From: Luteolibacter sp. Y139
GTDB taxonomy: Bacteria; Verrucomicrobiota; Verrucomicrobiia; Verrucomicrobiales; Akkermansiaceae
NCBI RefSeq assembly: GCF_038066715.1
Contig: NZ_JBBUKT010000016.1
Location: 62,001-126,000 of the forward strand
Length of the DNA: 64,000 nucleotides
Direction: 5' to 3'
Positions within the stretch are counted from its first letter, which is position 1; each line of letters opens with the position of its first letter. The translations under genes and the position numbers were made by a program. The notes beneath the pieces are model-generated. The model saw only the letters and a program-made list of their open reading frames with translations, was not told where the DNA came from and searched no databases. Positions 3,064-62,220 of the stretch are shown in pieces.

Positions 3064-3828
3064 GTGAAGGAGATTTGGGAACTGGCAATTAGCCCGGCGA
3101 TGCTGCCGCTGACGATTCTGTTGGTTCCGGTCGGCCTTTACTGGATATTGACCCTGGTAGGAATCGCAGGCCACGGGATTTCGCATGGCCACGGTCATGG
3201 TCATGTTTCCCACCACGGCGGAGGTCATCATGGTGGCGGCCATCACGGTCCCGTCCACGGTGCTCATGGCGCTGCCCATGGCCCGGGTCACGCTCACGGC
3301 CATGCCCACGCGCACAGCCATACCCACGGGCAGCATCATCATGGCCAGGGCGAGCACCACTTCTTCGCCGATCTGCTGCAAGGAGCGCTCCGCGTCGTCA
3401 ATGCCGAGGAGATGCCCGTCATGGGAGTCCTCTCGGTTCTGATCCTCTTCCTGTGGGGCGGCGCGATGCTTGGCAACTACTGGTTCAACCCGGGTTCGAG
3501 CGGTTCCATGGGTGCGCTGGTCATCCTCGGGGCCCTTGTCAGCGCGGTGATTTTTACCCGGCTGGTGCTTACCCCGCTGAAGCCGCTTTTCAAATTCTTG
3601 CAAAACGATCCGGAGCCGGAAGCTCCTCTCATCGGCCGGACCGGCTATGTCCGCACCGCCTTTGTCGATGAGAAATACGGCCAGGTCGTGGTCGATAACC
3701 GCGGCGCCCCGATCATCGTGGGAGCCCGTACGGCCCAGGACAGCGAACCCATCGAACGGAATGCCCACGTCTTGCTCGTGAGCCGCGACGAGGACTCCGG
3801 TCTCTACGTCGTCCGTTCTGCCCAGTGA
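3064..3828 (+). CDS. YqiJ/NfeD-like OB-fold membrane protein with His-rich loop
   Basis: The 254-residue protein has TM1 at about 8-34, a loop at about 34-100 containing about 26 histidines with Gly and Ala, TM2 at about 117-141, TM3 at about 148-172, and a soluble C-terminal strand-rich domain (about 185-254; IGRTGYVRTAFVDEKYGQVV). This domain matches the OB-fold of YqiJ/NfeD proteins, which partner flotillins. The flotillin gene follows 38 bases downstream, as in E. coli yqiJ-yqiK. The His tract is not part of the usual family and suggests metal binding (inference). The start shown is GTG; an AAGGAG sequence lies just inside the frame, so a slightly later start (for example ATG at 3100) is possible, but it would shorten TM1. 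Confidence 0.8.
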   Translation: MKEIWELAISPAMLPLTILLVPVGLYWILTLVGIAGHGISHGHGHGHVSHHGGGHHGGGHHGPVHGAHGAAHGPGHAHGHAHAHSHTHGQHHHGQGEHHFFADLLQGALRVVNAEEMPVMGVLSVLILFLWGGAMLGNYWFNPGSSGSMGALVILGALVSAVIFTRLVLTPLKPLFKFLQNDPEPEAPLIGRTGYVRTAFVDEKYGQVVVDNRGAPIIVGARTAQDSEPIERNAHVLLVSRDEDSGLYVVRSAQ

Positions 3829-3866
3829 TCCCGATCCATCCATTCTCCCCAACCAACGCTAATACC

Positions 3867-5933
3867 ATGTCTGCGATTCTAGCTGACTTCAATGTACCGT
3901 CCGTAGTCACAGCGCTTATTGTCGGCGGCGTCCTCGTCGCCGTGATCGGTAGCGCGGTCGTCATGTCCATGTTCTACCGCAAGGCCCAGCGCGGCCAGGC
4001 GCTGATCAAGTCCGGTGCCCGTGGCACCAAGGTCAGCTTCAACGGCATGACCGTGTTTCCCGTGGTCGAGCGCATGGAGAGCATGGACATCTCCCTGAAG
4101 CGCGTGGAAATCGACCGCGTCGGCAAGAACGGCCTGATCTGCAAGGACAACATCCGCGCGGACATCAAGGTGGCCTTCTTCGTCCGCGTGAACCAGACGG
4201 AGGAAGACGTGCTCCGCGTGGCCCAGTCGGTCGGTTGCGATCGCGCCTCCAGCGCTGATGAGATCCGCGATCTCTTCGACCCGAAATTCTCGGAAGCCCT
4301 CAAGACCGTGGGCAAGCGCTTCCTCTTCACCGAGCTTTATGAAGAGCGCGAGACCTTCCGCGACGAGATCATCAAGATCATCGGCACCAACTTGAACGGC
4401 TTCATTCTCGACGACGCCGCGATCGACTACCTGGAGCAGACTCCGCTGGAAATGCTCGACCCCGAGAACATCCTCGATGCCCAGGGTATAAAGAAGATCA
4501 CCGAGCTCACCGCGGTTGAAGCGAAGCTTTCTAACAACATCGTCCGCGACAAGGAGAAGGTCATCAAGCAGCAGGACGTGGAGACCCGCGAGGCGATCCT
4601 CGAACTCGAACGCCAGCTAGCTGAGACCGAGGCCAAGCAGAAGCGCGAGGTCGAGAGCGTTCGCGCCCGCGAACAGGCGGAAACCATGAAGGTGCAGGAA
4701 GAAGAGCGCCAGAAGGCCCAGCGCGCCAAGATCTCTGCCGACGAGGAAATCGAAGTCGCGACCCAGAACAAGGACCGCCAGGTCCTCGTCGCCCAGCGCA
4801 ACAAGGAGCGCACCGACGTGGTCGAGGTCGAACGCGTGAAGCGCGACCAGGAACTCGAAGCGATCGAGCGCGAGCGCGTGACCACGCTGAAGGGCATCGA
4901 GAAAGAGAAGGCCGTCGAAGTGGAGAAGAAGGCGATCCAGGACGTGATCAAGGACCGCGTCGCGGTCGAGAAGCTCGTCGTGATCGAGCAACAGCGCATC
5001 AAGGATACGGAAGCCTTTGCCGGTGCCGACCGCGAGAAGCAGGTCAAGGTGACCCTCGCCGAGGCGGTGGCCCAAGAGGAAATGATCCGCAAGGTCAAGG
5101 AAGCCCAGGGCTCGCAAGAAGCCGCGAAGCTGCGCGCCGATCAGGAGCTCTACGGAATTGTCAAAGCCGCGGAAGGCGAGAAGAAGGCTGCCGAGCTCAA
5201 GGCCGAGCAGGTCGTCATTTCCGCCGAAGCCGAGCAATCCGCGAGCGAGAAGCTTGCGGTCGCCAAGAAGCAACTCGCCGAAGCCACGGCGAAGGAAATT
5301 GCCGCCCCGGGCCTCGGCGAAGCCGAAGTCCTGCTGGCGAAGGCCGATGCCGTGCAGAAGCAGGGCACCGCGGAAGCCGAGGTCAGCCGCTTGAAATTCG
5401 AAGCGGAAGCCGAAGGCATCAACAAGAAGGCCGAAGCCATGAAGCTGCTCGAGTCCGCCGGCCAGGCCCACGAGGAGTTCAAGCTCAGGTTGGAGAAGGA
5501 GAAGGCGGTCGAACTCGCCGGTATCCATATCCAGAAGGACATCGCCGAGGCTCAGGCCATGGTCATGGGCGAGGCGATGAAGTCCGCCAAGATCGAGATC
5601 ATCGGTGGCGAGAGCAAGTTCTTCGACCAGATCGCCGGAGCCATCTCCCGCGGCAAGTCGGTGGATCGTATGGTCGCCCACAGCGAGGTGCTGCAGGACG
5701 TGAAGGAAACCTTCTTCAACGGTGACCCGGAATACTTCAAGTCCCAGCTCAAGGAATGGGCCGGCCAGTTCGGCATCTCCAGTGAGGACGTGAAGAACCT
5801 CACCGTGGGTGCCGCCATCGCCCAATTCCTCGGCAGCGCGACCGGTGACACCCGCAGCAAGCTGATCAGCCTGCTAGGTGCCGCCGACCGCTTCGGCCTG
5901 GCCGATCAGAATGCCGGCAAGGTGCTGAGCTGA
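3867..5933 (+). CDS. YqiK-type flotillin (SPFH domain protein)
   Basis: From the ATG at 3867 the protein is 688 residues. One N-terminal membrane helix lies at about 10-34, an SPFH/band-7 domain at about 40-220, a very long charged coiled coil at about 220-600 (heptads rich in Glu, Lys, Ala and Arg, with typical AEAEG-like repeats), and a conserved C-terminal region with NGDPEYF and SSEDVKN. Flotillins oligomerise on membrane microdomains and recruit partners. The open frame extends 14 codons upstream to a GTG overlapping the previous stop, but the ATG start puts the hydrophobic helix close to the N-terminus as in the family. It is slightly longer than E. coli YqiK (about 553). It sits between its YqiJ-like partner and a giant ATPase. 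Confidence 0.9.
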   Translation: MSAILADFNVPSVVTALIVGGVLVAVIGSAVVMSMFYRKAQRGQALIKSGARGTKVSFNGMTVFPVVERMESMDISLKRVEIDRVGKNGLICKDNIRADIKVAFFVRVNQTEEDVLRVAQSVGCDRASSADEIRDLFDPKFSEALKTVGKRFLFTELYEERETFRDEIIKIIGTNLNGFILDDAAIDYLEQTPLEMLDPENILDAQGIKKITELTAVEAKLSNNIVRDKEKVIKQQDVETREAILELERQLAETEAKQKREVESVRAREQAETMKVQEEERQKAQRAKISADEEIEVATQNKDRQVLVAQRNKERTDVVEVERVKRDQELEAIERERVTTLKGIEKEKAVEVEKKAIQDVIKDRVAVEKLVVIEQQRIKDTEAFAGADREKQVKVTLAEAVAQEEMIRKVKEAQGSQEAAKLRADQELYGIVKAAEGEKKAAELKAEQVVISAEAEQSASEKLAVAKKQLAEATAKEIAAPGLGEAEVLLAKADAVQKQGTAEAEVSRLKFEAEAEGINKKAEAMKLLESAGQAHEEFKLRLEKEKAVELAGIHIQKDIAEAQAMVMGEAMKSAKIEIIGGESKFFDQIAGAISRGKSVDRMVAHSEVLQDVKETFFNGDPEYFKSQLKEWAGQFGISSEDVKNLTVGAAIAQFLGSATGDTRSKLISLLGAADRFGLADQNAGKVLS

Positions 5934-5946
5934 ACGCTTGATTTCT

Positions 5947-5976
5947 GAGACACGCGGTCGAAAGGCCGCGTGTCTC
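5947..5976 (+). terminator. Perfect 11-bp hairpin after the flotillin gene
   Basis: Arms GAGACACGCGG (5947-5957) and CCGCGTGTCTC (5966-5976) pair perfectly around an 8-base loop. The hairpin begins 13 bases after the flotillin stop and ends 20 bases before the ATPase start. There is no clean T-run (TGGCTTCCATTTT follows), so it may be a partial terminator or an mRNA-processing/stability element that sets lower expression of the downstream ATPase. It overlaps the upstream GTG at 5970, which argues for the ATPase starting at the ATG at 5997. Confidence 0.55.
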
Positions 5977-5996
5977 TGGCTTCCATTTTCCATCGT

Positions 5997-8900
5997 ATGG
6001 CTGAGGAAACCCCCAAGCCCGACCAACTCGAAGGCGGCGCGTATGAAGTCATTCGCGCCCGGCTGGACAAGCACGCCGCGACTCTGCGAACCGGGCTCGA
6101 TGCGTTGAACGTCGAACGTCTCCAGGTGTTCGGCGGCATCGAGACCGCATTGCTCGCCACCGAGCGCGTGTCCACGGAGCACAATTGCGTGGCCCGTGAT
6201 CTGGTCGCGATCGGCAAGCACCGCTTCCTGTTCGGCTACAACATCCAGTTCGGCCTCAAGCAGACGACCGATATCAAGGACGTCTTCGCCGCCTACGATT
6301 TTAGCCCGGAGTCGCGCTCCTTCACCGCGCTGCCAGTGGAGGAAGTGCTCGCAGGCCCGCGCTTTGCCGAGGACTTCGCGTACCTCTTCAAGTACTACCG
6401 GGAGGCCGTCTTCCTGAAGTTCATGCTCATCGGCCCTCACCTTTACCTGGTGATGCGGGCCGGCAAGACCATCGACGACATCAAGGCCTTCAAGTGGCGG
6501 CTCGATGGCGATGGCACTCTCGAATACCTCGGCAACCGCTTCGATCACGAATGCGTTTTCCCGGCCCAGCAGGAGTTCCAGTGGCAGCGAGCCCACCGCG
6601 GCATGCATCGTGCCGGCGTCCACCCGCACATCTCGATTGAAGATCGCGTCTTCGTTGAAACCGTCGGCGGTGACCTGACCGTGAAGGTCGAGGATAACAC
6701 CGCCACCGGCCAGGGCATCTACTCCGAGCCTGTCAGTGAAAGTGACCAGACGCTTGATGACGCGGAGATTTTCTACGCCACCGTCGGCTCGCTAATCCTG
6801 CTGAAGATTCTCCCCTATCGCGAAACCCTTCACCGCTATCTGGTCTTCAATGAAAAGACCAAGACGGTGCATCGCATCGATGCCATCGGCGACTCGTGCG
6901 TGCTGTTGCCCGACGATCACGGCCTGATCTTCGCCAATGGCTACTTGTTGCAAACCGGCGAAGCGAAAACCTTCGACCACGGTCTGTTAGACATGCGCTT
7001 CGAGCGCAAGGTCGCGAGCTCGAACGGTGAGGACGTCCTCTACTCCTTCTACAACCGTGCGGCAGGTGACTACGTCCTGCTCTCCTACAACCGGATCCAG
7101 CAGTCGGTGGAGACGCCGATCGTCTGCTCCGGATATTCGCTGTTCGGCGATGGCGAGCTCGTGCTGTTCCGTGGCGATGGCCAGCCGCAGAAGCACCACG
7201 CCCTGCAAATCTGGCAGACGCCTTATCTGGACGACGAGACGAGCACGGCGGCTGCCACCAATAAGGACTCCTTCCTCTACAAGATCGGCAATCCCGAGTT
7301 GGTCCGCGGCATGGCGGAGTCGCGCGAGCTACTCACCTTGCTGAACAAGGACGACTCCTTTGCCGGCCTCTACCTCGACATCGTCAAGCAAGCGGGTGAC
7401 CTTCTCGATGCCTACTTCTGGCTGGATCGCAGCGAGTGCCAATCGCTCGCCGCGCCGGTTCGCGAGATCAAGCGGGCCGGTGAAGCGGCCATCGGCGAGT
7501 TCGAGAAGGTCCAGAAGCTCCGCGCCGTGGCTGCCGAACGCACGGCAGTGGTTCGCACGGCCGTCGAGAAGCTGGTCCGTGAAACGCAGACCTCTCCTCC
7601 GGATGCCTTGCAGGGCTTCGTTCATCAGCTCGCGGGGTTGCGGAAGCTTCGTGGCGAGATCATCGGCTTGCGGGATGTCCGCTACACGGACGCCGCGACT
7701 ATCGCCGCGTTCGAGAAAGAGGTGGTCGAGACCTCCGATGCCGTGTCGGCCCGGACTGTCGATTTCCTGTTAGGCGAGGATTCCCTGAAATCCTACGCCG
7801 CAGCCATCGATACCCAGGAAGCCGCGCTCGCGAAGATCGCGAAGGTCACCGAGGCTGACGAAGTCGCCACGGCTCTCGACCAGGCGGCGACCGAACTGGA
7901 GATGCTGATCGAGATCGTCGGCGGATTGAAGATTGCCGATGCCACCCAGACCACGGCGATCATCGAGCGGATTTCCGCGCTCTACGCGCGACTGAACGGG
8001 ACACGCGGCTCGCTGCGCAACAAGCGCAAGGAACTCGCGCGCGGCGAAGGCGAGGCGCAATTCGCGGCGCAGATGAAGCTGCTGTCGCAGGCGCTCGCGA
8101 ACTACCTCGACCTCTGCGACACCCCGGAAAAATGCGATGAATCGCTGACCCGCCTGATGGTGCAGGTCGAGGAGCTGGAAGGGAAATTCGCCGAGTTCGA
8201 CGAATACATCGAGCAGATCTCCACGCGTCGCGAGGAGATCTACGATGCTTTTGAAGGTCGTCGCACCCAGCTCGTCGAAGCTCGCGGCAAGCGGGCAGGT
8301 GCGTTCTTCAAGTCGGCCGAGCGAATCCTCGCCGGCATTCGCAATCGCGTCTCGTCCCTGGGCGAAGTGGAGGAAATCCATTCCTACTTCGCGGCTGATC
8401 CGATGATCGAAAAGGTCCGCGACTTGATCGGCCAGCTCCAGGAGATGGGCGACACGGTCAAGGCGGACGACCTCCAGACGCGCCTCAAGACGCTGCGCGA
8501 GGACGGCGTGCGGCAGCTGAAGGACAAGAAGGATCTCTACGTCGACGGCGAGAATGTGATCCGCTTCGGCAAGAATGCCTTCAACGTGAACACGCAGCCT
8601 TTGGAGATGGCCATCGTACCCCACGAGGATGCGATGGCGTTCCATCTCACGGGCACCAAGTTTTACGAGCCGATCACCGACGCGGAGTTCCTCGCTACGC
8701 GCGAGGCGTGGGATCTGGAAGTGCCAAGCGAGAGCCCGCGGGTGGCTCGAGTAGAGTATCTCGTGTGGCAGTTCCTTTATCGCGGAGCTGCATCGAATGA
8801 CCTTCTCGCGGGCGTGCAGGCCTTCATGCAGCCCCGCTATGCCGAGGGCTACACCAAGGGCATTCACGACGAGGATGCGGCGAAGATCCTCGCTCTGTTG

Positions 8901-11081
8901 CTGCCGATTCATGCGGAAGCCGGGTTGCTGCGCTTCGGGCCGCGTGACCGTGCGGCGGCGGTACTGTTTTGGGAATCGTGGGACGATCCGGCGAAGACAC
9001 GTCTCGCAGGACAGTTCGCGTCCTACGGGAAGCGTCGTAGTTTGTTCGCAGGAGGCGACGAGATTGAATCGTGGAAGAAGAGGCTCGCGGAATCGTTTGC
9101 GAAGTGGAGCGCCGACCACGGTCTGTTCACCGAAGTGCACGCGACCAAGGCGGCCGACTATCTTTCTGAGGAACTTGCAGCCGGAGGGGCCTTTCTTGTT
9201 TCTGCCGTCGCGGCCGAATTGAGCCGCCAATTTCAGCAAGCCCTGGTGGCGAAGCGGGCGGAGAGTATTTTCAAGGAGTTGCTCGGTGACCAGGACGCTC
9301 CCGCCTTCGTTCGCTACGAGATTGCCCGTGACTGGCTGGCGGGATTCGCGGTGAATCATCCGGAGGCTCTCACGGATACGCCTGCCGAGTTGCTGCCGGC
9401 AGTGATCGATGAAGCGGCGGTTCATTTCTCTCGCGGCGGCTTCGAGCAACGCGCGGTGAAAACGGTGCCTCTCTCGTTCCGTGTAGAGGGGCTGCGTTCC
9501 AGCCACACGCGGATCGTCGGTGGTGCGCTGGAGATTCACTATAGCGAATTCCTGGATCGCCTCGATCGGCATGAGCGCACCGATGCTACTGCCTTCCGTG
9601 CCTTGGCAGAGCGCAAGTCGCAGCTCACCGGTGCCAAGCGCCAGACCATGCGGCTGGATGAATTCAAGCCGAAGGTGATGAGCGCCTTCGTCCGAAACCG
9701 TCTCATCGACGAGGTCTATCTTCCATTGATCGGCGACAACCTTGCCAAGCAGCTCGGCACCGCCGGCGCGAACACGCGCACCGACCGCATGGGCCTGCTG
9801 CTGTTGATCTCGCCGCCCGGCTACGGCAAGACGACCATCATGGAGTACGTCGCCAATCGTCTCGGCCTCACGTTCGTGAAGATCAATGGTCCGGCTCTCG
9901 GTCATCGCGTGCTTTCGCTTGATCCCGCCGAGGCGCCGAATGCCTCCGCCCGCATGGAAGTCGAGCGCGCCAACCTCGCGCTGGAGATGGGCGACAATGT
10001 GATGCTATACCTCGACGACATCCAGCACACCGATCCCGAGTTCTTGCAGAAGTTCATCAGCCTCTGCGATGCCCAGCGGAAGATCGAGGGTGTGTGGAAG
10101 GGCCAGGCGCGGACCTATGACTTGCGTGGCCGGAAGGTCGCCGTCGTCATGGCGGGCAATCCTTACACCGAAAGCGGCGGCAAGTTCCAGATCCCGGACA
10201 TGCTCGCGAACCGCGCCGACACCTACAATCTCGGCGACATCCTCGGCGGCCACGAGGCTGCCTTCAAAGGAAGTTACATTGAGAACTCGCTCACTTCGAA
10301 CGCCACGCTCTCGAAGCTCGCCAGTCGCTCGCAGAAGGACGTGCTGATGCTCATCCGCGTCGCCGAAACGGGCACGCGCGATGGTGCCGACTTCGAGGGC
10401 AACTACACCCCCGCCGAAGTGGAAGAGATGCTCGCCGTGGTGAAGCACCTGCTCACCGTCCGCGACACCATTCTACGGGTGAACCTCCAATACATCGCCA
10501 GCGCCGCGCAGGAAGACGCCTATCGAAACGAGCCGCCCTTCAAGCTCCAGGGTTCGTATCGAAACATGAACCGCATCGCCGAGAAGGTGCTGCCGCTCAT
10601 GACTCCGGAAGAAGTGCGGCAGATCGTCATCGATCACTACCGCAGCGAATCGCAGAACCTCACCACCGCCGCCGAGGCGAACTTGCTGAAGTTCTACGAG
10701 ATGGAAGGCATGCTCGATGAGAAGCAGGCCACGCGCTGGGAGCAGATCAAGAAGGAGTTCGGCAAGCGCAGGCTGCTCGGCGCCGGCGGCGAGAACGATC
10801 CCATCGCCCGTGTCGTCGCGCAGCTCACCCAATTCAACGACGGCCTCGAAGCGATCAAGGACGGCATCTCACGAGCGGGCGAACGCTATGCCGCTCCCCA
10901 GTCACTCGCTGATCAAACCATCGGCCAGCTTCGCACCATCATCGAAGGCCTCCGTGCAGTTCCCGTGCAAGTGGACATCAAGGTCGTGCCCGTGCAGGAC
11001 GAGAAGAGAAGCATTGAAAGCGTCGACTCGTCCGACAAACCGCCTTTGGCCTTCGAGCCGGAAGTGAGGCAAACGGATTAA
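5997..11081 (+). CDS. Giant AAA+ ATPase, 'DNA repair ATPase' (DUF3686) family
   Basis: From the ATG at 5997 the protein is 1,694 residues. The N-terminal half (about 20-480) is strand-rich and matches what is known of DUF3686 proteins, annotated as ATPases involved in DNA repair. A long helical and coiled-coil region covers about 500-900. The AAA+ core is C-terminal: Walker A SPPGYGKTT at 1272-1280 (Lys1278), Walker B MLYLDDIQ with Asp1340-Asp1341, and a sensor-like MAGNPYTESGGKF segment followed by the Arg of ANRAD. The second Walker B acidic residue is Asp instead of Glu. The gene closes the YqiJ-flotillin module, and its partners suggest a membrane-microdomain-associated remodeller; a DNA repair role is by family name only. 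An alternative GTG start at 5970 lies inside a hairpin. Confidence 0.85.
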   Translation: MAEETPKPDQLEGGAYEVIRARLDKHAATLRTGLDALNVERLQVFGGIETALLATERVSTEHNCVARDLVAIGKHRFLFGYNIQFGLKQTTDIKDVFAAYDFSPESRSFTALPVEEVLAGPRFAEDFAYLFKYYREAVFLKFMLIGPHLYLVMRAGKTIDDIKAFKWRLDGDGTLEYLGNRFDHECVFPAQQEFQWQRAHRGMHRAGVHPHISIEDRVFVETVGGDLTVKVEDNTATGQGIYSEPVSESDQTLDDAEIFYATVGSLILLKILPYRETLHRYLVFNEKTKTVHRIDAIGDSCVLLPDDHGLIFANGYLLQTGEAKTFDHGLLDMRFERKVASSNGEDVLYSFYNRAAGDYVLLSYNRIQQSVETPIVCSGYSLFGDGELVLFRGDGQPQKHHALQIWQTPYLDDETSTAAATNKDSFLYKIGNPELVRGMAESRELLTLLNKDDSFAGLYLDIVKQAGDLLDAYFWLDRSECQSLAAPVREIKRAGEAAIGEFEKVQKLRAVAAERTAVVRTAVEKLVRETQTSPPDALQGFVHQLAGLRKLRGEIIGLRDVRYTDAATIAAFEKEVVETSDAVSARTVDFLLGEDSLKSYAAAIDTQEAALAKIAKVTEADEVATALDQAATELEMLIEIVGGLKIADATQTTAIIERISALYARLNGTRGSLRNKRKELARGEGEAQFAAQMKLLSQALANYLDLCDTPEKCDESLTRLMVQVEELEGKFAEFDEYIEQISTRREEIYDAFEGRRTQLVEARGKRAGAFFKSAERILAGIRNRVSSLGEVEEIHSYFAADPMIEKVRDLIGQLQEMGDTVKADDLQTRLKTLREDGVRQLKDKKDLYVDGENVIRFGKNAFNVNTQPLEMAIVPHEDAMAFHLTGTKFYEPITDAEFLATREAWDLEVPSESPRVARVEYLVWQFLYRGAASNDLLAGVQAFMQPRYAEGYTKGIHDEDAAKILALLLPIHAEAGLLRFGPRDRAAAVLFWESWDDPAKTRLAGQFASYGKRRSLFAGGDEIESWKKRLAESFAKWSADHGLFTEVHATKAADYLSEELAAGGAFLVSAVAAELSRQFQQALVAKRAESIFKELLGDQDAPAFVRYEIARDWLAGFAVNHPEALTDTPAELLPAVIDEAAVHFSRGGFEQRAVKTVPLSFRVEGLRSSHTRIVGGALEIHYSEFLDRLDRHERTDATAFRALAERKSQLTGAKRQTMRLDEFKPKVMSAFVRNRLIDEVYLPLIGDNLAKQLGTAGANTRTDRMGLLLLISPPGYGKTTIMEYVANRLGLTFVKINGPALGHRVLSLDPAEAPNASARMEVERANLALEMGDNVMLYLDDIQHTDPEFLQKFISLCDAQRKIEGVWKGQARTYDLRGRKVAVVMAGNPYTESGGKFQIPDMLANRADTYNLGDILGGHEAAFKGSYIENSLTSNATLSKLASRSQKDVLMLIRVAETGTRDGADFEGNYTPAEVEEMLAVVKHLLTVRDTILRVNLQYIASAAQEDAYRNEPPFKLQGSYRNMNRIAEKVLPLMTPEEVRQIVIDHYRSESQNLTTAAEANLLKFYEMEGMLDEKQATRWEQIKKEFGKRRLLGAGGENDPIARVVAQLTQFNDGLEAIKDGISRAGERYAAPQSLADQTIGQLRTIIEGLRAVPVQVDIKVVPVQDEKRSIESVDSSDKPPLAFEPEVRQTD

Positions 11082-11099
11082 AGGCGGGCGCTTGATGCA

Positions 11100-11528
11100 T
11101 CACGACTCCCGCGACCATCGGAACTTGCGCTCCGCTTCAGTGATGGGCTGGTCGTTGATGCTGGCATAGCGGCGGGCCATGTAGCCGTGTTCATCGAACT
11201 CCCAGTTTTCATTGCCATGGCTGCGCCACCACTGGCCGGTTTCGTCGTGCCATTCGTATTCGAAGCGCACGGCGATGCGGTTGCCGGTGAAGGCCCACAG
11301 GGTTTTCTTCAGGCGATAGTCGAGCTCGCGCTGCCACTTCTTTGTTAGAAACGCGACGACCTCCTCGCGGCCGTTGAGGAAGTCGGTGCGGTTCCGCCAT
11401 TCGGTGTCTTCGGTGTAGGCGAGGGAGACCCGTTGCGGATCGCGGGTGTTCCATGCGTCTTCGGCGGCCTGGACCTTTTGGAGGGCGGTTTCTTCGGTGA
11501 AGGGTGGGAGTGGCGGGCGTGGATTCAT
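11100..11528 (-). CDS. DUF1348 / NTF2-like (SnoaL-fold) small protein
   Basis: The 142-residue protein has the compact alpha+beta cone-fold pattern of the nuclear transport factor 2 superfamily. Motifs such as [33 protein letters not shown] and [13 protein letters not shown] match the DUF1348 family closely over its full length. Members are small cytoplasmic proteins of uncertain biochemical role. Its ATG overlaps the stop codon of the upstream PPOX gene (ATGA at 11525-11528), so the two are translationally coupled. It is the last gene of the minus-strand cluster and is convergent with the giant ATPase, with only 18 bases between them. Confidence 0.88.
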
Positions 11529-12127
11529 GGCGATGTCGGTGGATGGAGTTGGGATTCGAGTTCGGCGATGCGCGCCTTGAGAGGGGCGATCGCCTCAGTC
11601 ACTTCGGCGGCAGTGTAGCGCGGGGTGATGTACTTCGGGCAGTTCCAGTCGTAGGAGACGATCCGGATCCGGAAGATGCGCTCGGTCAGCTTCACCATAT
11701 CGGGCGCGGCGATTTGGGCGACCAATTCGGGATGCTCGCGGGCATCGAGCACCTCGGCGTGGCCGAGCAGTTTGAGCCGCACGCGCTGGGGATAGTCCAT
11801 GAGGAACAGGCATACCCGGTCGTTCACGGCGAGATTGCCGGTGCTGAGCATCTGGCGGTTGCCCTTGTAGTCGGCGAAGGCGATTTCATTCGGCGAGATG
11901 ACTTTCGCGAAGCCCGCCGGGCCGCCGCGGTGTTGGACATAAGGCCAGCCGGTCTCATTGACGCTGGACAGGTAGAAGCTGTCGCGTGATTCGATGAAAT
12001 CAATCTCATCCGGCCCCAACGGATCGTTTTGGATCGCCGGAGGGAGCGATTGGGAGCGGCCATAGTAGTGCTGCTGTGCGGCCCGCACCGCCGGGGTGAA
12101 GGCGACTTCGAGGAATTTGTGGGCCAT
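11525..12127 (-). CDS. Pyridoxamine 5'-phosphate oxidase-like flavin-binding protein
   Basis: The 200-residue product starts at the ATG at 12125-12127 ([14 protein letters not shown]). It contains the split-barrel FMN-binding signature: [64 protein letters not shown]. These are typical of PPOX-family proteins that bind flavin and reduce or sequester small molecules or reactive species. The C-terminal about 50 residues ([13 protein letters not shown] plus a helix) match the longer bacterial subgroup. The reading frame extends 17 codons further upstream, but without family similarity. It is coupled by an ATGA overlap to the DUF1348 gene, and the DsrE-like gene lies upstream on the same strand. 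Confidence 0.85.
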
Positions 12128-12207
12128 GGCGATGGGAATGGTTCGGACTGAATTGGATGGGGCTACCGGTGAGCACACTTGACGTGGCCGACCGGATTTT
12201 GGTGCGG

Positions 12208-12579
12208 TTAGAACACCAGCACCTGCCAGCCGTCAGCGAGGTAGCGCCTCAGGCTGAGCAGGCCGGTGGGACCCGCCGCAGTGTTGTCCTTCTTTTCCGG
12301 AACGCCGGAGGCTTCGAGGCCTTCGGTCGCACCGAAAACGGCCGCGCAGGCACAGGACGCGCCTACCACGAGGTCGCGCACTTCATTGTAGAGGGCATTG
12401 GCCGGATGAGTGATCTTCGAAAGCTGCTCGGGCCAGCGGGTGCCAGTGCCGATGAAGCTGACTTCTACCTCGTCTCCGGCCTGCTTGCCTTCGGCGGCCA
12501 CGGCGAGCGCATTGAATGCCCGGGCAAGGGCTTCTTCTCCGGCCTTGGGATCGCTGATGAGAATGACGGCTGTTTTCAT
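12208..12579 (-). CDS. DsrE/DsrF-like sulfur-relay family protein
   Basis: From the ATG at 12577-12579 the product is 123 residues: MKTAVILISDPKAGEEALAR, then AGDEVEVSFIGTGTRW, ending in LRRYLADGWQVLVF. This is the Rossmann-like alpha/beta order of DsrE-type proteins, with a central region NEVRDLVVGASCACAAVFGA holding two cysteines where DsrE proteins carry their active thiol. The upstream 42 codons of open frame are leader or promoter DNA containing the LysR-type palindrome and are unlikely to be translated. The gene heads the minus-strand cluster DsrE - PPOX - DUF1348 and is divergent from the LysR regulator, which probably controls it. Confidence 0.75.
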   Translation of the reverse strand: MKTAVILISDPKAGEEALARAFNALAVAAEGKQAGDEVEVSFIGTGTRWPEQLSKITHPANALYNEVRDLVVGASCACAAVFGATEGLEASGVPEKKDNTAAGPTGLLSLRRYLADGWQVLVF

Positions 12580-12689
12580 GGTGTCGCTTGATGTCTGTTG
12601 GTGGTGTGCTCGCGGGAATGGTTCCCGGTCGACGAGCACATCCTGCCGCGATCCGCGTACTTTGGATAATGCCGCTTCGCTGTTGCAGC

Positions 12690-12706
12690 TATGCCGGATC
12701 GGCATA
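12690..12706. promoter_or_regulatory. LysR-type T-N11-A palindromic operator
   Basis: The sequence TATGCCG-GAT-CGGCATA is a perfect 7-3-7 palindrome and contains the T-N11-A pattern recognised by LysR-family regulators. It lies 10 bases before the GTG of the LysR gene and about 110 bases before the DsrE-like start, where an autoregulatory and divergent-activation site is expected. Binding by the adjacent regulator is inferred from position. Confidence 0.7.
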
Positions 12707-12716
12707 ACATAGTGGC

Positions 12717-13601
12717 GTGATTGATCGCATCCGTTCGTTGCTGGCCGTCATCGAAGAGGGCAGCGTCAACCGCGCCGCAGTCCGGCTACGCATCACCCAG
12801 CCCGCCCTGAGCCGGCAGATGAAACTGCTGGAATCTGAAGTCGGCGGGCGCCTGCTGGAGCGTGGATCCAGCGGTGTGACACCCACCGGCCTCGGCCACG
12901 CGCTGGTCAAGGTCATGCGTCCCGTCGTCGATTCCTACGATGCAGCGCTGGCCGACGTGCGTCGCCAAGCGCGCGGCTTCCGCTCGGAATTGCGCGTGGG
13001 ATTCCTGATCTCCGCCGCGCAGCCCATCCTGACTCCTGCCCTCGAGCGGCTGCGCAACACGCATCCGGAGATCAAGCTCAAGCTCCACGACATGTCGCCC
13101 AAGGAACAGATCGACGCCTTGGAAGCCGGGGAGATCGATCTCGCCCTGATCGGCCAGGAAGGGGCGGTCGCCGCGCGTGATTTCCATAGCCTCAAGCTCG
13201 GCTCCCTCGGCGTGTGCGCCGCGCTTTCCTCCGGGGACCCGCTGGCAGCGCGGAAGCGGATCGCCATCAAGGATCTCGCCGGCCGCGATTTCATCGGCGC
13301 GGATGAAGATCATATGCCGGGAAGAAACCGCTGGATCGCTTCCCTCTGCCGGTCGGCTGGTTTCAAGCCGCGCTTCTTGTCGATCATCGACGGGATCACG
13401 CACATGCTGTCGATGGTGGCTTCCGAATCAGCGGTCACCTTGCTGCCGGATTACTTCAGGGCGGCCAGCCACCCGGGCGTCACCTTCGTGCCAGTCGCGG
13501 ATGCGAATGCACGCTGGGACCTAATCGTGCTGTGGCAACGCGGCAAAACCTCCGCGGCCACAACCGCCCTCGTCGCCGCGCTCAAGGCGACCGCATCGTA
13601 G
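12717..13601 (+). CDS. LysR-family transcriptional regulator
   Basis: The 294-residue protein has an N-terminal winged helix-turn-helix (about 1-60; VNRAAVRLRITQPALSRQMK, ESEVGGRLLERG) and a periplasmic-binding-protein-like effector domain (about 90-294; LRVGFLISAAQPILTPALER, GEIDLALIGQ). This is full length for LysR regulators. The start is GTG at 12717, because the first helix of the HTH begins immediately and the operator palindrome ends only 10 bases upstream. It is divergent from the DsrE/PPOX/DUF1348 cluster, so the usual model is small-molecule-dependent activation of that cluster plus autorepression. The effector is unknown. Confidence 0.95.
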   Translation: MIDRIRSLLAVIEEGSVNRAAVRLRITQPALSRQMKLLESEVGGRLLERGSSGVTPTGLGHALVKVMRPVVDSYDAALADVRRQARGFRSELRVGFLISAAQPILTPALERLRNTHPEIKLKLHDMSPKEQIDALEAGEIDLALIGQEGAVAARDFHSLKLGSLGVCAALSSGDPLAARKRIAIKDLAGRDFIGADEDHMPGRNRWIASLCRSAGFKPRFLSIIDGITHMLSMVASESAVTLLPDYFRAASHPGVTFVPVADANARWDLIVLWQRGKTSAATTALVAALKATAS

Positions 13602-13628
13602 CTAGAGGCTCCTAACAGTCCGAGCCCC

Positions 13629-16600
13629 TTATTGAGGTTCCATCACCCTCAGCCGCAGGTAACCCTTGCCCATCTCCGGCTTCGCCACCGTGGCAGTCAC
13701 CGGCACACCTCCCGAGCCGATCTCGCCTTGGTTGACGATTTCCCAACTCCACGAAAACTCCGAGAGATCGATGGAAAACTCGACCCGGAATTGAATGCCC
13801 GCGGCCACCGCCTGCACTGAAGGCGTGTAGGTGTAGCTGAGGACTTCGCCATCTCCATCGAAGGTGACCGGAAGCACGCCTGGCTTGCTGGGATCCATGC
13901 CCAGCGCGAACTTCACCAGGTTTGGAATATCATCGCCCTGCGGCGTCGCATCGTCTGCGCCGGGACCGTCGGTGCTGGTGCTGCCGGGGAAATAGGTCTG
14001 CCGCCAGCCTTCGAGGATCGTGGCCGTGGTGAAGAAATCGACTCCAGTGTAGACGGTCCCGATGCTGCTCGTGGCATAGGCCGCCACCGCATAGGTCGTA
14101 TTCGGCTGTAGCCCGGCAGCGGTGGTATTGAAGGCCCCCGTGGTGCCGCTGACCACGATGCGCGTCACGCCTTCCGCCCCGATCCGCGGATTTTCACTCA
14201 CGCTGAGGCTTGAGAAAACGATGCCGCGTTCCGTGACCAGAGCATCGCCTTGGGAAATCACGTCGCCACCGAGCACCGCGGTGTCATCCGTCACCTCGCC
14301 GATGGTCGGACCCGTGATCGTGGGCAGCGCAGGCGCGGGTCCTGTTAGAACGTGCACGTGCTCCAGCTTGCTCCCGATTCCCGTAACCAGCCGGCCGCTC
14401 AGCGCGCCGTTGCCCGTGATCTCCACGGGAGTGAGGCTCAGGACCGTGCTGCCATCGCCAAGGCCGGATGGGAGATAGCCCCACGCATACAGACGTCCAT
14501 CCGATGTCACCGCGAGGCTGTGCCGCAGGCCCGCGCGGATCTTCACCACCGTCTTGCCCGCCAGCGCGCCGCTCATGTCCACCATCACCGGAGAGCTGCT
14601 GGAGTTAGCCGTCGCATCACCGAGTTGGCCGCTTGTATTCGCGCCCCATGCATATACCTCGCCCTCGCTGGTGACTGCGAGCGCATGGCTGTAGCCGCAA
14701 CTGATCGCCGTGACCGTTTTCCCCGCGAGGACTCCCGTGACATCCACCCCCACCGGTGCGGCACGATCGGTAGTGGTGCCATCACCCAGCGCTCCTTGCC
14801 CGTTCGAGCCCCACGCATAGACCCTTCCTTCGCTGGTGAGGGCCAGACTCCTCTCGTTCCAGGCGCTGATCGCAGTGATCGTCTTCCCGGCAAGCGCGCC
14901 GCTCATGTCGACCGCCACCGGCGATGCTTCCGATGGCCCGGCCGCACCGGTGCCAAGCTGCCCGGCATTGTTCAGGCCCCACGCATAAAGTTCACCCCCG
15001 CTCGCCAGCGCCAGCGTGAATCCGTCGCCGACGCTCACCGCCGTCATCGTCTTGCCCGCCAGCACGCCGCTGTCATCCACCGGGTAAGGCGTATTCGCCG
15101 GGAAAAACCCTCCATGCCCGAGCTGGCCGTAGGCGCCATTGCCCCACATGAAGATCTTTCCATCGCCCGTCAGCGCGGCACTCGCCGCATTGCCCGCACT
15201 GATCGCGGTGACGGTGTGACCGAGTAGCGCGCGATGCATGTCCACCGGCACCGCCACATTGCTGAAGGTGCTCGTGCTATTGCCCAGCTCGCCATAAATG
15301 TTCGCCCCCCACGCAAACAGCTTCCCGTCCCCGGTCCGTACCAGCGTGTGTCCCCAGCCATCTTCCACCTCCGCGATCGTCTGGCCCCACAGCGCTCCGG
15401 ATTGATCGATCGCCACCGGCTCGGCGCGATCCGTCGTGGTGCCATCGCCGATGCGTCCCGACTCATTGACACCCCACCCGAGGAAGGCAGAGCCCGAGGG
15501 CGCTCCACCATTTCCCGTCAGGATGATCTCGAATGTGGTCTGATCCGGATCGTTGCTCGTGAGGTAGAGCGCCGCCGTCTTCGTCCCCTCGCTGTCAGGA
15601 GTGAAGGTGACTGTTAGACTCGTGCTGCCTCCCGCAGTCACCGATGTCGAAGGCGGGGTCGTGATCGCAAACAATCCCAGATCCAGCCCGGCTTTCGTCA
15701 CCGTGAGTCCAGCCATGGCACCCGTTCCTACATTGGAAATGTCGAAGGAGATCTCCTGGCTGCTGCCCACCGCTTGCGTTCCCCAACTGCAAACCGAACC
15801 GCTCACCAACGCCTTGCCCGGCGATTGCGACACCGCGATGTCCGCCTCCACCGGCAGCGCCCCATGCGCGAGCGCCACGAGGTGTTCTCCGCCGATGTCG
15901 ATGCGCGAGATCATCTTGCCATGAAGCTGGCCGCTCATGTCACCCGCCACCGGACTCAGCCGATTGAACATCAGCCCGCCCGACTGCCCTTCGGCAAGGG
16001 CACCCCAGCCAAAATACTCCGTCCCGGAAGCCGAGGTCGCCATCGTCACCCCCTGTCCGGCGGTAATGCTCCCGAGAAGCTTCCCCGCCAGCGCGCTGCT
16101 CACATCCACCGCCACCGGACTCGTCCGCTGGCTCTTGGTGCCATCGCCAAGCTGGCCGCTCTCGTTCGCACCCCACGCATACGCCTTCCCGGCAGCAAGG
16201 ACCGCGGTATATCCATAGCCGGCGGAAAGCTGCGACACGCGATTCCCCGATGACGGCTGTGGGATCGCTGACAGATCCACCAGCACCGGCGTGTTGCTGC
16301 TCGTCAGCGTCCCATCGCCAAAGGCTCCGGTGCTGTTGTCGCCCCACGCGTAGCACAAGTCATCCGTGGTCGTGACGATCGTGTGCTCGTCCCCCGCACT
16401 GATGAGGTCAATGAATTTGCCCGCCAGTGCTCCGGTGACTTCGGCAGGCGTGTTGTAAAACGCGCCGCCACCCGTCCCGAGCCTGCCATTGGAGTTGTAG
16501 CCCCACGCATAGAGCTTCCCATCGGAGGTCACCGCGAAGCTGTGATGCGTGCCAGCCTCGATCTTGATGACCGTCTTCCCATCGACCAATCCACCGGCAC

Positions 16601-18659
16601 CAACTGCCACCGGTTGCGTCTGGAACAAATACGATCCGATCCCGAGCTGCCCCTGGCCATTGTCACCCCACGCATACACCTTCCCCTCCGAAGTCAGTGC
16701 CAGGCAATGCTTCCCTCCCACGGAAACCGTAGTCACGAACTTCCCCGCCAGAGCCCCGCTCGTCAGCACCGCCACCGGCGAAGCGCTGTCGACCTGATTG
16801 CCACTGCCGAGCTGGCCCACGTCATTGACGCCCCACGCATACACGAGCCCGTCCTGGTCCACCGCCACTGTGTGGTAGCTCCCCGCGTCCAGATCGCGCA
16901 GGAAGCGTCCGGCCAGCACGCCCGTCTTGTCCACATGCACCGCGGAGGTGCGGGAAAGGGTGCTGCCATCACCGATCTGTCCGAAGGTATTGCCCATCCA
17001 CCCATAGCCATCCCAGTCCATCTCGGTCGCACCGGAGCCATCGACCGGAATCCGGAAGGGATTGGCAAAAGCGCCGCTGCTCGTGCTGGTCACACTCACC
17101 ATCGCATTCTTCGCACCGGAGGAGGTGGGACTGAAACGCACGTGAAACACCGCCGTCTCTCCCGCCCCCAGCGTCGTCGCGGTGAGTCCCAGCACCTCGA
17201 ACTGCTCCGCATCCGCACCCGAGGCCGTCACCGTCAGTCCCTCCAGCGGCAGTTGCCCGTCATTGCGGATCGTGAAAGGCCGGAGCTCCTGCGAATGCAG
17301 CGGCAGGTTGCTGAAATGAACCGTGCTTTGGTTGTCGGTCCGCTGCGATCCACCGGCTCCCACGCCATTGAAAACCTGGAGGTAAGGCGCGGGATCCTGT
17401 GCCGCGAGTAGATAGCCGCCGAAGGAGTTGATAGAGATCGCCGTCGCGATCTTCCGGTCCAGCGGCCCCGTCATGTTCACGGCCACCGGAGTGTGGCTGT
17501 CGGTCGTGCTGCCATCGCCGAGTTGACCGTGCTCATTTTGTCCACAGGCATAGACCTTGCCGTCCGACGTCAGCATCAGGTGGAAATCCAGACCCGCCAC
17601 GATGTCCGTCACCGTCTTGCCCGCGAGAGCTCCGCTCATGTCCACGGCGACCGGCTCGTAGCGGTCGGTGGTGGTGCCATCGCCGAGCTGGCCGTGATCA
17701 TTGCGCCCCCATGCATAGACCTTGCCGTCCGAGGTCAAGGCCATCGAGGTGAGCACTCCCGCTGAGACCTTGGCCACGGTCTTCCCTGCCAAGGCTCCAT
17801 CCATGGTGATCAGGACGGGAGAACTGGCGCTGGCGGTGCTTCCCGTGCCCAGAGTCCCCCAGCTACCGCTGCCCCATCCGTAAACTTTTCCCTCTGTCGT
17901 CACGGCCAGCGAATGCGACTGGCCGGCACTGATGTCCGTCACCGTCTTGCCGGACAGCTCCCCGTTCATGTTCACAGCCACGGGTTCGGCGCTGATGCCC
18001 TGGCTACCGGTTCCGAGCTCGTATCCGAAGTTGCGGCCCCACCCGTAGATTTTTCCCTCCGAGGTCAGAGCCAGGCTGAACGGACCGCCTGCGCTGATCT
18101 TCGTGACCGTCTTGCCGGCGAGCGCTCCGGTCGCGATGACCTCCACCGGGACCAGTTCGGGATCCGGGAAGGTTAAGGGGGAGTCTTGATACATTTCGCC
18201 ATTGCCTACGGCCCCGAAATAAGTGTCGCCCCAGGCATAGACCTTTCCTTCCGACGTCAGCACCAGCGAGTGATCGTTGCCGACTGACACATCCGTGATC
18301 GTCTTCCCGGCCAGCACCCCGCTCATGTCCACCGCTACCGGCTCGGGGCTTCCCATCACGGTACCATTCCCCAGCGCTCCGCCCGCTCCAGCGATTCCGC
18401 CCCATGCATAGAGTTTGCCATCGGACGCCAGCGCCAGCGCCGTGTGGTTCGAGCCCTGCATCAGCGTGATGGATTTCCCTGCCAGCGCGCCGCTGGTCAC
18501 CACCGGGCTCGGCGTCAGGCGTTGCTCGGAGGTGCCATCGCCGATCTGGCCGAAGTTATTCCAGCCCCAGCCATAGCAATCGGCAGCTCGCGCCGGTTGG
18601 AGAACTCCGGAGAGGGTGGCTAGCAGAAGACAACTCAGGGAAACAAAGGTCGCTTTCAT
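13629..18659 (-). CDS. Exported RCC1-repeat protein, three seven-bladed propellers
   Basis: From the ATG at 18657-18659 the protein is 1,676 residues with a Sec signal peptide (residues 1-26). I count 21 RCC1-type repeats of about 50 residues, each marked by a YAWG..N..GQLGDGT-like core and an LAGKTVT / [10 protein letters not shown] pair. They fall into three blocks of seven, at about 26-415, 545-950 and 1055-1465, consistent with three seven-bladed propellers. The blocks are separated by two strand-rich 'choice-of-anchor D'-like domains (about 425-545 and 955-1055). The C-terminus adds an FN3-like domain and a GW..Y module ([11 protein letters not shown]) common in verrucomicrobial exported proteins. 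Likely cell-surface or secreted; binding partner unknown. The upstream TTG at 18674 is not preferred as start. Confidence 0.88.
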
Positions 18660-18677
18660 GGGAGGGGTCGTCAAAAG

Positions 18678-52482: not shown

Positions 52483-52534
52483 GGTTTCCCGGGTTCGCTC
52501 TGAATGGGCAGCCCTACTAACAAATCATCCAACG

Positions 52535-52568
52535 ACGGCCGCCGGGATTCCGGCGGCCGTTTTTGTTT
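52535..52568 (+). terminator. Rho-independent terminator of sodA
   Basis: ACGGCCGCCGG (52535-52545) and CCGGCGGCCGT (52550-52560) form a perfect 11-bp stem with a four-base loop, followed by TTTTTGTTTGG. The same arms recur in the terminator at 62185. It lies 52 bases after the sodA stop. Confidence 0.92.
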
Positions 52569-62184: not shown

Positions 62185-62220
62185 AACGGCCGCCGGATTT
62201 CCGGCGGCCGTTTCTTGTTT
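62185..62220 (+). terminator. Rho-independent terminator, same stem arms as at 52535
   Basis: AACGGCCGCCGG (62185-62196) pairs perfectly with CCGGCGGCCGTT (62201-62212) with a four-base loop, followed by TCTTGTTT. Eleven bases of each arm are identical to the sodA terminator. Confidence 0.92.

Follow-up and report, generated by a model that had tools for sequence, protein, structure and literature searches.

Three consecutive genes of Luteolibacter sp. Y139 encode a YqiJ-like membrane protein, a YqiK-type flotillin and a DUF3686-type ATPase of about 1,700 residues, and their adjacency raises two questions: do the three belong together, and what would so large an ATPase do beside a flotillin? 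The genes lie in series on the plus strand of contig NZ_JBBUKT010000016.1, within a stretch of 64,000 nucleotides from a 7.1 Mb genome; this whole stretch is called "the window" below. All three are present in the open reading frame (ORF) calls, as an initial annotation of the window had stated, and they comprise the following features.

3064-3828, plus strand: YqiJ/YuaF-like (NfeD2-type) membrane protein, 254 residues, GTG start, three hydrophobic segments and a His-rich loop
3163-3414, plus strand: His-rich loop of the YqiJ-like protein, residues 34-117, with 26 His and 1 Asp; bounds taken from alignment columns
3867-5933, plus strand: YqiK-type flotillin, 688 residues, with an N-terminal hydrophobic segment, Band_7 and a long, charged, coiled-coil-like region
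5947-5976, plus strand: hairpin with a GAAA loop, 13 pairs including one U-G, beginning 13 nt past the flotillin stop codon
5997-11081, plus strand: DUF3686/DUF7902/AAA+ ATPase, 1,694 residues, modelled as a beta-propeller, helices and a MoxR-like C-terminal AAA+ domain
6084-7418, plus strand: DUF3686 (PF12458), residues 30-474; the propeller model covers residues ~47-409
7779-8033, plus strand: DUF7902 (PF25472), residues 595-679 (Pfam)
9651-10712, plus strand: AAA+ domain, residues 1219-1572 (model residues ~40-393), with Walker A SPPGYGKTT, Walker B LDDIQH, AGNP and GSYR

The three genes are one inherited module. DUF3686 occurs in 27 of 288 genomes sampled from the phylum and in none of a control set of 14 genomes that includes E. 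coli and B. subtilis. Flotillin and YqiJ genes stand upstream of the ATPase gene, on the same strand, in 22 of the 27; this count includes one locus (L029) with a 3.6-kb insertion, in which YqiJ stands directly before the flotillin. The YqiJ-flotillin pair is on another contig in three more of these genomes (G015, G129 and G284), and a YqiJ profile search found no match in G086 and G191. Matches to the YqiJ profile at E < 1e-20 were found in 25 of the 288 genomes, all 25 of which have DUF3686 (Fisher's exact test, 5e-34); the profile is tuned to the present kind of YqiJ, because it was built from ATPase partners only, and weaker matches occur in 24 further genomes that lack DUF3686. Of the 18 genomes of the genus, 14 carry DUF3686 and 15 carry YqiJ; three have neither, and one, which is 61% complete, has YqiJ alone. 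In every one of the 14 with both, a single contig carries the two, separated by 2.3-3.0 kb.

A similar picture comes from a set of named loci, the best 80 of 538 confirmed matches obtained with the seeds PPGYGKTT and DML[AS]NRAD; the set leans to close relatives. Their titles include Verrucomicrobiota, Kiritimatiellota, Planctomycetes, Bacteroidota, Desulfobacterales, Myxococcus, Clostridia and others. Judged by the ATPase, those nearest to the window come from Roseibacillus, Rubritalea and other Verrucomicrobiales. One named locus, L077, is an apparent duplicate of G186 and was left out of the locus, spacer, neighbour and distance counts, leaving 79; it is still among the 72 rows of the motif alignment and in A2 and A3. 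Genes in the loci were called mechanically, except that the ATPase of L084 was placed by hand from the named-genome scan. Strict counts omit loci with less than 2.5 kb of upstream sequence (15 of the 79 named and one of the 27 own-phylum loci). In the 64 named loci that have at least 2.5 kb, a same-strand flotillin lies within 4 kb of the ATPase in 61, and YqiJ is there too in 57. The proteins have also diverged in step: pairwise protein distances among 77 loci correlate at r = 0.85 for ATPase and flotillin, 0.75 for ATPase and YqiJ and 0.72 for the third pair, with none of 1000 permutations as high.

The initial annotation had called for such a comparison of co-occurrence and neighbourhoods, and held that the grouping would be accidental if the ATPase gene usually lay far from flotillins in related genomes. 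The comparison shows that the linkage is conserved and that the ATPase usually adjoins a flotillin in its relatives. Accidental adjacency is ruled out by the linkage seen in the phylum, the named loci and the genus, and the counts (22/27 and 61/64) strongly support grouping the ATPase with the flotillin pair. The data show the order YqiJ-flotillin-ATPase conserved on a single strand across several phyla, joint presence and absence within the phylum and the genus, and correlated divergence, together with an ATPase that has no membrane segment of its own and has the modelled folds described below.

Some observations weigh against a single module. Four own-phylum loci with at least 2.5 kb of upstream sequence have no adjacent pair (L030, L031, L033 and L034). 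No flotillin was found in the 10 kb upstream of the ATPase at L074 and L081, and at three loci (L118, L119 and L089) a flotillin is present without any match to YqiJ. The YqiJ-flotillin pair evidently needs no ATPase, since the pairs of E. coli and of L177, where a PspA-YqiJ-flotillin cluster occurs, lack one. Shared ancestry alone could also give correlated divergence, because the distances carry no species-tree control. Two further arrangements were seen: at L124 the YqiJ-flotillin pair is oriented divergently to the ATPase, and L178, which like L177 comes from the genomes with weaker YqiJ matches and no DUF3686, has a YqiJ-like protein but no flotillin match.

The module is genuine and widespread, and its kind is already in print. 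Section 19 of Ravi et al. 2024 (PMC11237479) describes operons of a band-7/flotillin protein, a YqiJ/YuaF protein and an AAA+ ATPase with a coiled coil and a beta-propeller, with or without PspA. The form without PspA is described there as abbreviated. Membrane dynamics and chaperone-like assembly are the suggested roles, and the main text nowhere uses the name DUF3686. The likeness to the present loci is one of description and extends to the same three components, to an ATPase with a coiled coil and a beta-propeller, and to PspA and CesT/Tir in some relatives. In the window, a protein with a transmembrane segment, a band-7 domain and a coiled coil (the last read from the sequence) is encoded beside a YqiJ/YuaF-like protein with three transmembrane segments, and adjoining them is an AAA+ ATPase that in models has a coiled coil and an N-terminal beta-propeller. 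The CesT/Tir-PspA dyad of the full form is not in the window's locus. What the present analysis adds to that description is the counts, the modelled MoxR-like fold, the Asp/His-rich loop and the spacer hairpins. Our literature search found no paper that names DUF3686 or PF12458, and none that joins "DNA repair ATPase" with flotillin; a paper found under MoxR and WD40 mentions neither flotillin nor DUF3686.

The pairing of YqiJ with a flotillin, annotated from the start as a known one, was described earlier than the trio. A passage of PMC2636767 places an NfeD2-type partner and a reggie-like flotillin in one operon, as YqiJ-YqiK in E. coli and YuaF-YuaG in B. subtilis; these pairs resemble ours in that partnership and differ in that neither control genome has DUF3686. 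No family was listed by Pfam for the window's full-length flotillin, but its first 230 residues, scanned alone, match Band_7 at E = 4.9e-9, and this domain and the YqiJ-type neighbour bear out its identification as a YqiK-type flotillin. The window's genome has eight Band_7 matches. The protein has one hydrophobic stretch, at the N-terminus, and a long C-terminal coiled region that was read from the sequence rather than computed. Band_7, the coiled region and the adjoining NfeD2-type gene are features of SPFH2 flotillins, a subgroup label that here rests on the YqiJ-type partner. The YqiJ-like protein had been called a membrane OB-fold protein. Its three hydrophobic stretches agree with a membrane location, but the OB fold can be assigned only from the family, because the sequence itself matches no Pfam model; among 22 aligned relatives YqiJ_N matched in seven and NfeD in two (E <= 0.01).

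The third protein is, as first described, a very large DUF3686-type ATPase. Pfam matches are to DUF3686 (E = 8.5e-184; 611.7 bits against a cut-off of 25), DUF7902 (3.5e-27) and AAA (2.3e-6), with AAA_5 at 22.1 bits against a cut-off of 22. It has no membrane-type hydrophobic segments, and no protease family is listed for it. The Walker A and Walker B motifs reported as visible were found (SPPGYGKTT and LDDIQH), the Walker B having Asp-Asp instead of Asp-Glu, and DnaA has a similar one. All 72 sequences of the alignment (72 of 72) share both aspartates, the Gln and the His of DDIQH, and the GSYR and AGNP motifs do not vary among them either; the seed motifs PPGYGKTT and DML[AS]NRAD are invariant in the named loci by selection. 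Broken forms of the gene, attributable to decay or sequencing error, were seen at L108, where the ATPase is split into two ORFs (9920-15235), and on contig 83 of G300, where the DUF3686 matches come in two pieces.

Structural models suggest what the two ends of the ATPase may be. Residues 1-600 were modelled by AlphaFold2 from 68 aligned sequences with a mean predicted local distance difference test score (pLDDT) of 91. The N-terminus models as a beta-propeller: residues ~47-409 are mostly beta, and the nearest structures are WD40-type propellers such as DCAF1 (Z 9.9, 6.0 Å, 214 aligned). With Z below 10, large root-mean-square deviations and low template-modelling scores, the match points to a shared propeller arrangement and to no close relative, and a search of solved structures by sequence gave no match to the DUF3686 part at E <= 1. 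In the model of the C-terminal part (pLDDT 78, 61 sequences), the AAA+ domain is closest to MoxR types among the fold matches listed, namely CbbQ2 (Z 17.5, 3.6 Å, 253 aligned) and NorQ (17.2, 3.5 Å, 240), followed by midasin (14.1) and ClpB/ClpA (13.3). Sequence matches to solved structures (best 60 of 129) have their best stretches around the P-loop. The MoxR chains matched are ~230-270 residues long, whereas the present domain is the C-terminal part of a protein of 1,694 residues that also has a modelled beta-propeller. A VWA partner, which is a MoxR feature, is not listed among the annotated neighbours, although no systematic VWA search was made.

We propose, as the likeliest role though one somewhat short of probable, that the module may be an ATP-driven remodeller docked on a flotillin scaffold, an idea drawn from fold, linkage and analogy. 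YqiJ and flotillin would form a scaffold, either a microdomain or a cage, at the cytoplasmic membrane, on its inner face. The ATPase would dock on this scaffold or on its clients through the propeller, the helical part or both, and its AAA+ domains would assemble into a ring that spends ATP on taking apart or rearranging the client complexes gathered on the scaffold. The clients may arise in membrane-protein assembly or from stress damage, and in some lineages PspA and a CesT/Tir-like chaperone may take part. The initial annotation's phrase, a membrane-microdomain machine with no defined task, describes the trio fairly and differs little from section 19 of PMC11237479.

The analogy is with HflK/C-FtsH (PMC12048511 and PMC13220708), which likewise combines an SPFH scaffold with an AAA+ motor. 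The present module would work in a similar mode without being a member of that system. FtsH is a membrane-bound protease, whereas the present ATPase has neither an FtsH-type membrane anchor nor a recognised metalloprotease domain. Two points about the ATPase count against the proposal: the AAA+ model is of middling quality, and ATP hydrolysis may be slow because the Walker B is Asp-Asp. Published work on S. aureus speaks for the proposal: the flotillin of that species, acting with NfeD, is reported in PMC11222466 to stabilise unfolded proteins without ATP. The same source calls the purpose of flotillin microdomains unclear. In a bolder and decidedly doubtful version, the trio would represent a second, protease-free SPFH-AAA+ family, in which a MoxR-like ring with a propeller receptor sits on a flotillin/YqiJ cage and drives microdomain remodelling with ATP, perhaps tuned by divalent metal at the YqiJ loop, be it acidic or His-rich. 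A dedicated and conserved AAA+ motor beside flotillins in several phyla would recast the question of microdomain function as that of one enzyme's clients and phenotype.

The alternative that survives best makes the ATPase a Vps4-like disassembly motor for PspA (bacterial ESCRT-III-like) filaments, with the flotillin pair merely anchoring it to the membrane. A PspA gene accompanies the module at 7 of the 27 own-phylum loci and at 16 of the 79 named ones. By genome, PspA passes the cut-off in 15 of the 27 that have DUF3686 and in 15 of the 261 that do not (Fisher 3e-10, genome size uncontrolled). A 12-locus cluster of neighbouring genes, mostly one gene further upstream (position -4 in nine), gave CesT_Tir_1 in the one member tested. 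PspA is nevertheless a frequent and not a necessary partner, because in 8 of the 27 genomes with DUF3686 nothing matches it at E <= 0.001. The window's genome has a single, weak PspA match (34.4 bits) on another contig and none beside the trio, which is therefore the abbreviated form, without the CesT/Tir-PspA dyad. The AAA+ model is nearer to MoxR types than to other AAA+ chains among the matches listed, a comparison that rules out none of them. We regard a PspA motor as unlikely.

A second alternative concerns the loop between hydrophobic segments 1 and 2 of the YqiJ-like protein. The initial annotation was right to call this protein His-rich, as the 84-residue loop holds 26 His and 1 Asp. 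Elsewhere the loop is typically Asp-rich: at least four Asp, often as DxDxDxD, occur in 78 of 80 mapped YqiJ proteins, the exceptions being the window and L087, and L087 is mis-mapped. Three of 15 proteins of the genus have a His-rich loop (the window, L186 and L188); in several more the loop contains both residues. An Asp-rich loop does not signal the presence of the ATPase, since L178 has one and lacks the ATPase. Asp and His both bind divalent metals, so that a metal-linked role is a guess, and no literature match listed deals by its title with this loop. On this reading YqiJ would be a metal sensor or buffer and the module would mainly guard against metal stress. Metal-efflux scaffolds do exist in mycobacteria (PMC9374683), but those platforms form without flotillin. 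No metal transporter is among those of the recurrent neighbour clusters that were annotated, and the low-complexity loop could be a mere spacer; we think this explanation improbable.

The Pfam description of PF12458, "ATPase involved in DNA repair", offers a third, in which the membrane neighbours would be incidental. RuvB does appear among the weak sequence matches (RuvB_N at 23.5 bits, under its cut-off of 27, and RuvB chains) and among the fold matches. The sequence matches listed span only ~45-70 residues at the P-loop, however, and p97-type ATPases match at least as well; Pfam lists no nuclease domain, and the linkage to membrane genes is conserved. A repair enzyme is accordingly very improbable, and the data suggest that the Pfam wording is misleading for the DUF3686 family. 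Equally remote is a phage-defence or other conflict system, to which the scattered distribution (27 of 288 genomes), the PDDEXK_3 genes found close to some of the loci and a PADLOC match to LmuB at 3.1e-5 might point, given that the module is in most genomes of the genus and that PADLOC gave weak and partial matches only (LmuB the best, 21.4 bits in the coiled-coil region; others at the P-loop).

The GTG start of the YqiJ-like gene, at 3064, aligns with the MKEIW start of congeners. Partly as a matter of judgement, we preferred ATG 3867 to GTG 3825 for the flotillin, and ATG 5997 to GTG 5970, which lies within the hairpin, for the ATPase. The hairpin between these two genes had been called perfect and taken to suggest different dosage. 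A 13-pair stem with a GAAA loop is real, but one pair is U-G, so that it is not quite perfect. The stretch folds at z = -4.1, and none of 200 shuffles was as stable. It is a single copy in the genome, allowing up to three mismatches, which rules out a repeated element; it is present in 2 of 14 genomes of the genus, which rules out a hairpin conserved there; and no T-run stands directly behind it, so that a normal intrinsic terminator is unsupported.

Hairpins are nonetheless over-represented behind the flotillin gene across phyla, while not being conserved within the genus. A stem of nine pairs or more is present in 22 of 57 spacers between flotillin and ATPase. The corresponding figures are 39 of 268 for other spacers on the same strand (Fisher 1e-4) and 13 of 141 for other spacers at the module. 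The same comparison by spacer length gives 2/20 against 1/73 (20-60 nt), 8/18 against 7/73 (60-120 nt) and 12/19 against 31/122 (120-340 nt). In all but two of the 22 stem-bearing spacers (20), the flotillin stop is followed by the start of the stem within 32 nt. Comparing spacers with spacers, though it ignores relatedness, is a better control than an earlier mononucleotide shuffle, by which such stems occurred in 25 of 60 spacers with 0.75 expected. Spacers were ended at the mechanical ATPase start, past which the window's own hairpin runs, so that it is cut; at 37 nt to that start, the window's spacer is the shortest of 14 in the genus. A role at the 3' end or in attenuation, with more flotillin than ATPase as the outcome, is possible but unproven. 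Different dosage through the hairpin draws slight support from the excess of stems and is weakened by its rarity in the genus.

Other genes recur near the module. A 15-locus cluster, mostly upstream on the opposite strand, gave an HTH_3 regulator in the one member tested, and a five-locus cluster at scattered positions gave a PLD-like match in one. A PDDEXK_3 (GxxExxY-type) gene, which may be a mobile insertion, lies between flotillin and ATPase or nearby (for example L041:11269-11643 and L042:9232-9606); its cluster covers eight loci, in six of them directly before the ATPase, and the family was seen in the two members tested. A CII-like (PF06892) helix-turn-helix gene, possibly a regulator, stands beside the module in five own-phylum loci (among them L043:5647-6162 and L052:14289-14771; two were tested). 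In L033 and L034, which belong to one genus and have the ATPase apart from a flotillin, the gene directly upstream (11026-11865 and 10831-11670, respectively) gave a Kdo/WaaP-kinase match, L034 being the one tested.

In the window itself, the gene upstream of the trio (1379-2995) encodes FtsX and MacB domains, and a DUF1348 gene lies downstream on the minus strand. Farther downstream, the minus strand at 13629-18674 encodes a 1,681-residue protein that, its translation read by eye, is apparently rich in RCC1-like repeats. A near-identical pair of GC-rich hairpins at 52534-52561 and 62185-62212, each with T-rich sequence after it, is terminator-like.

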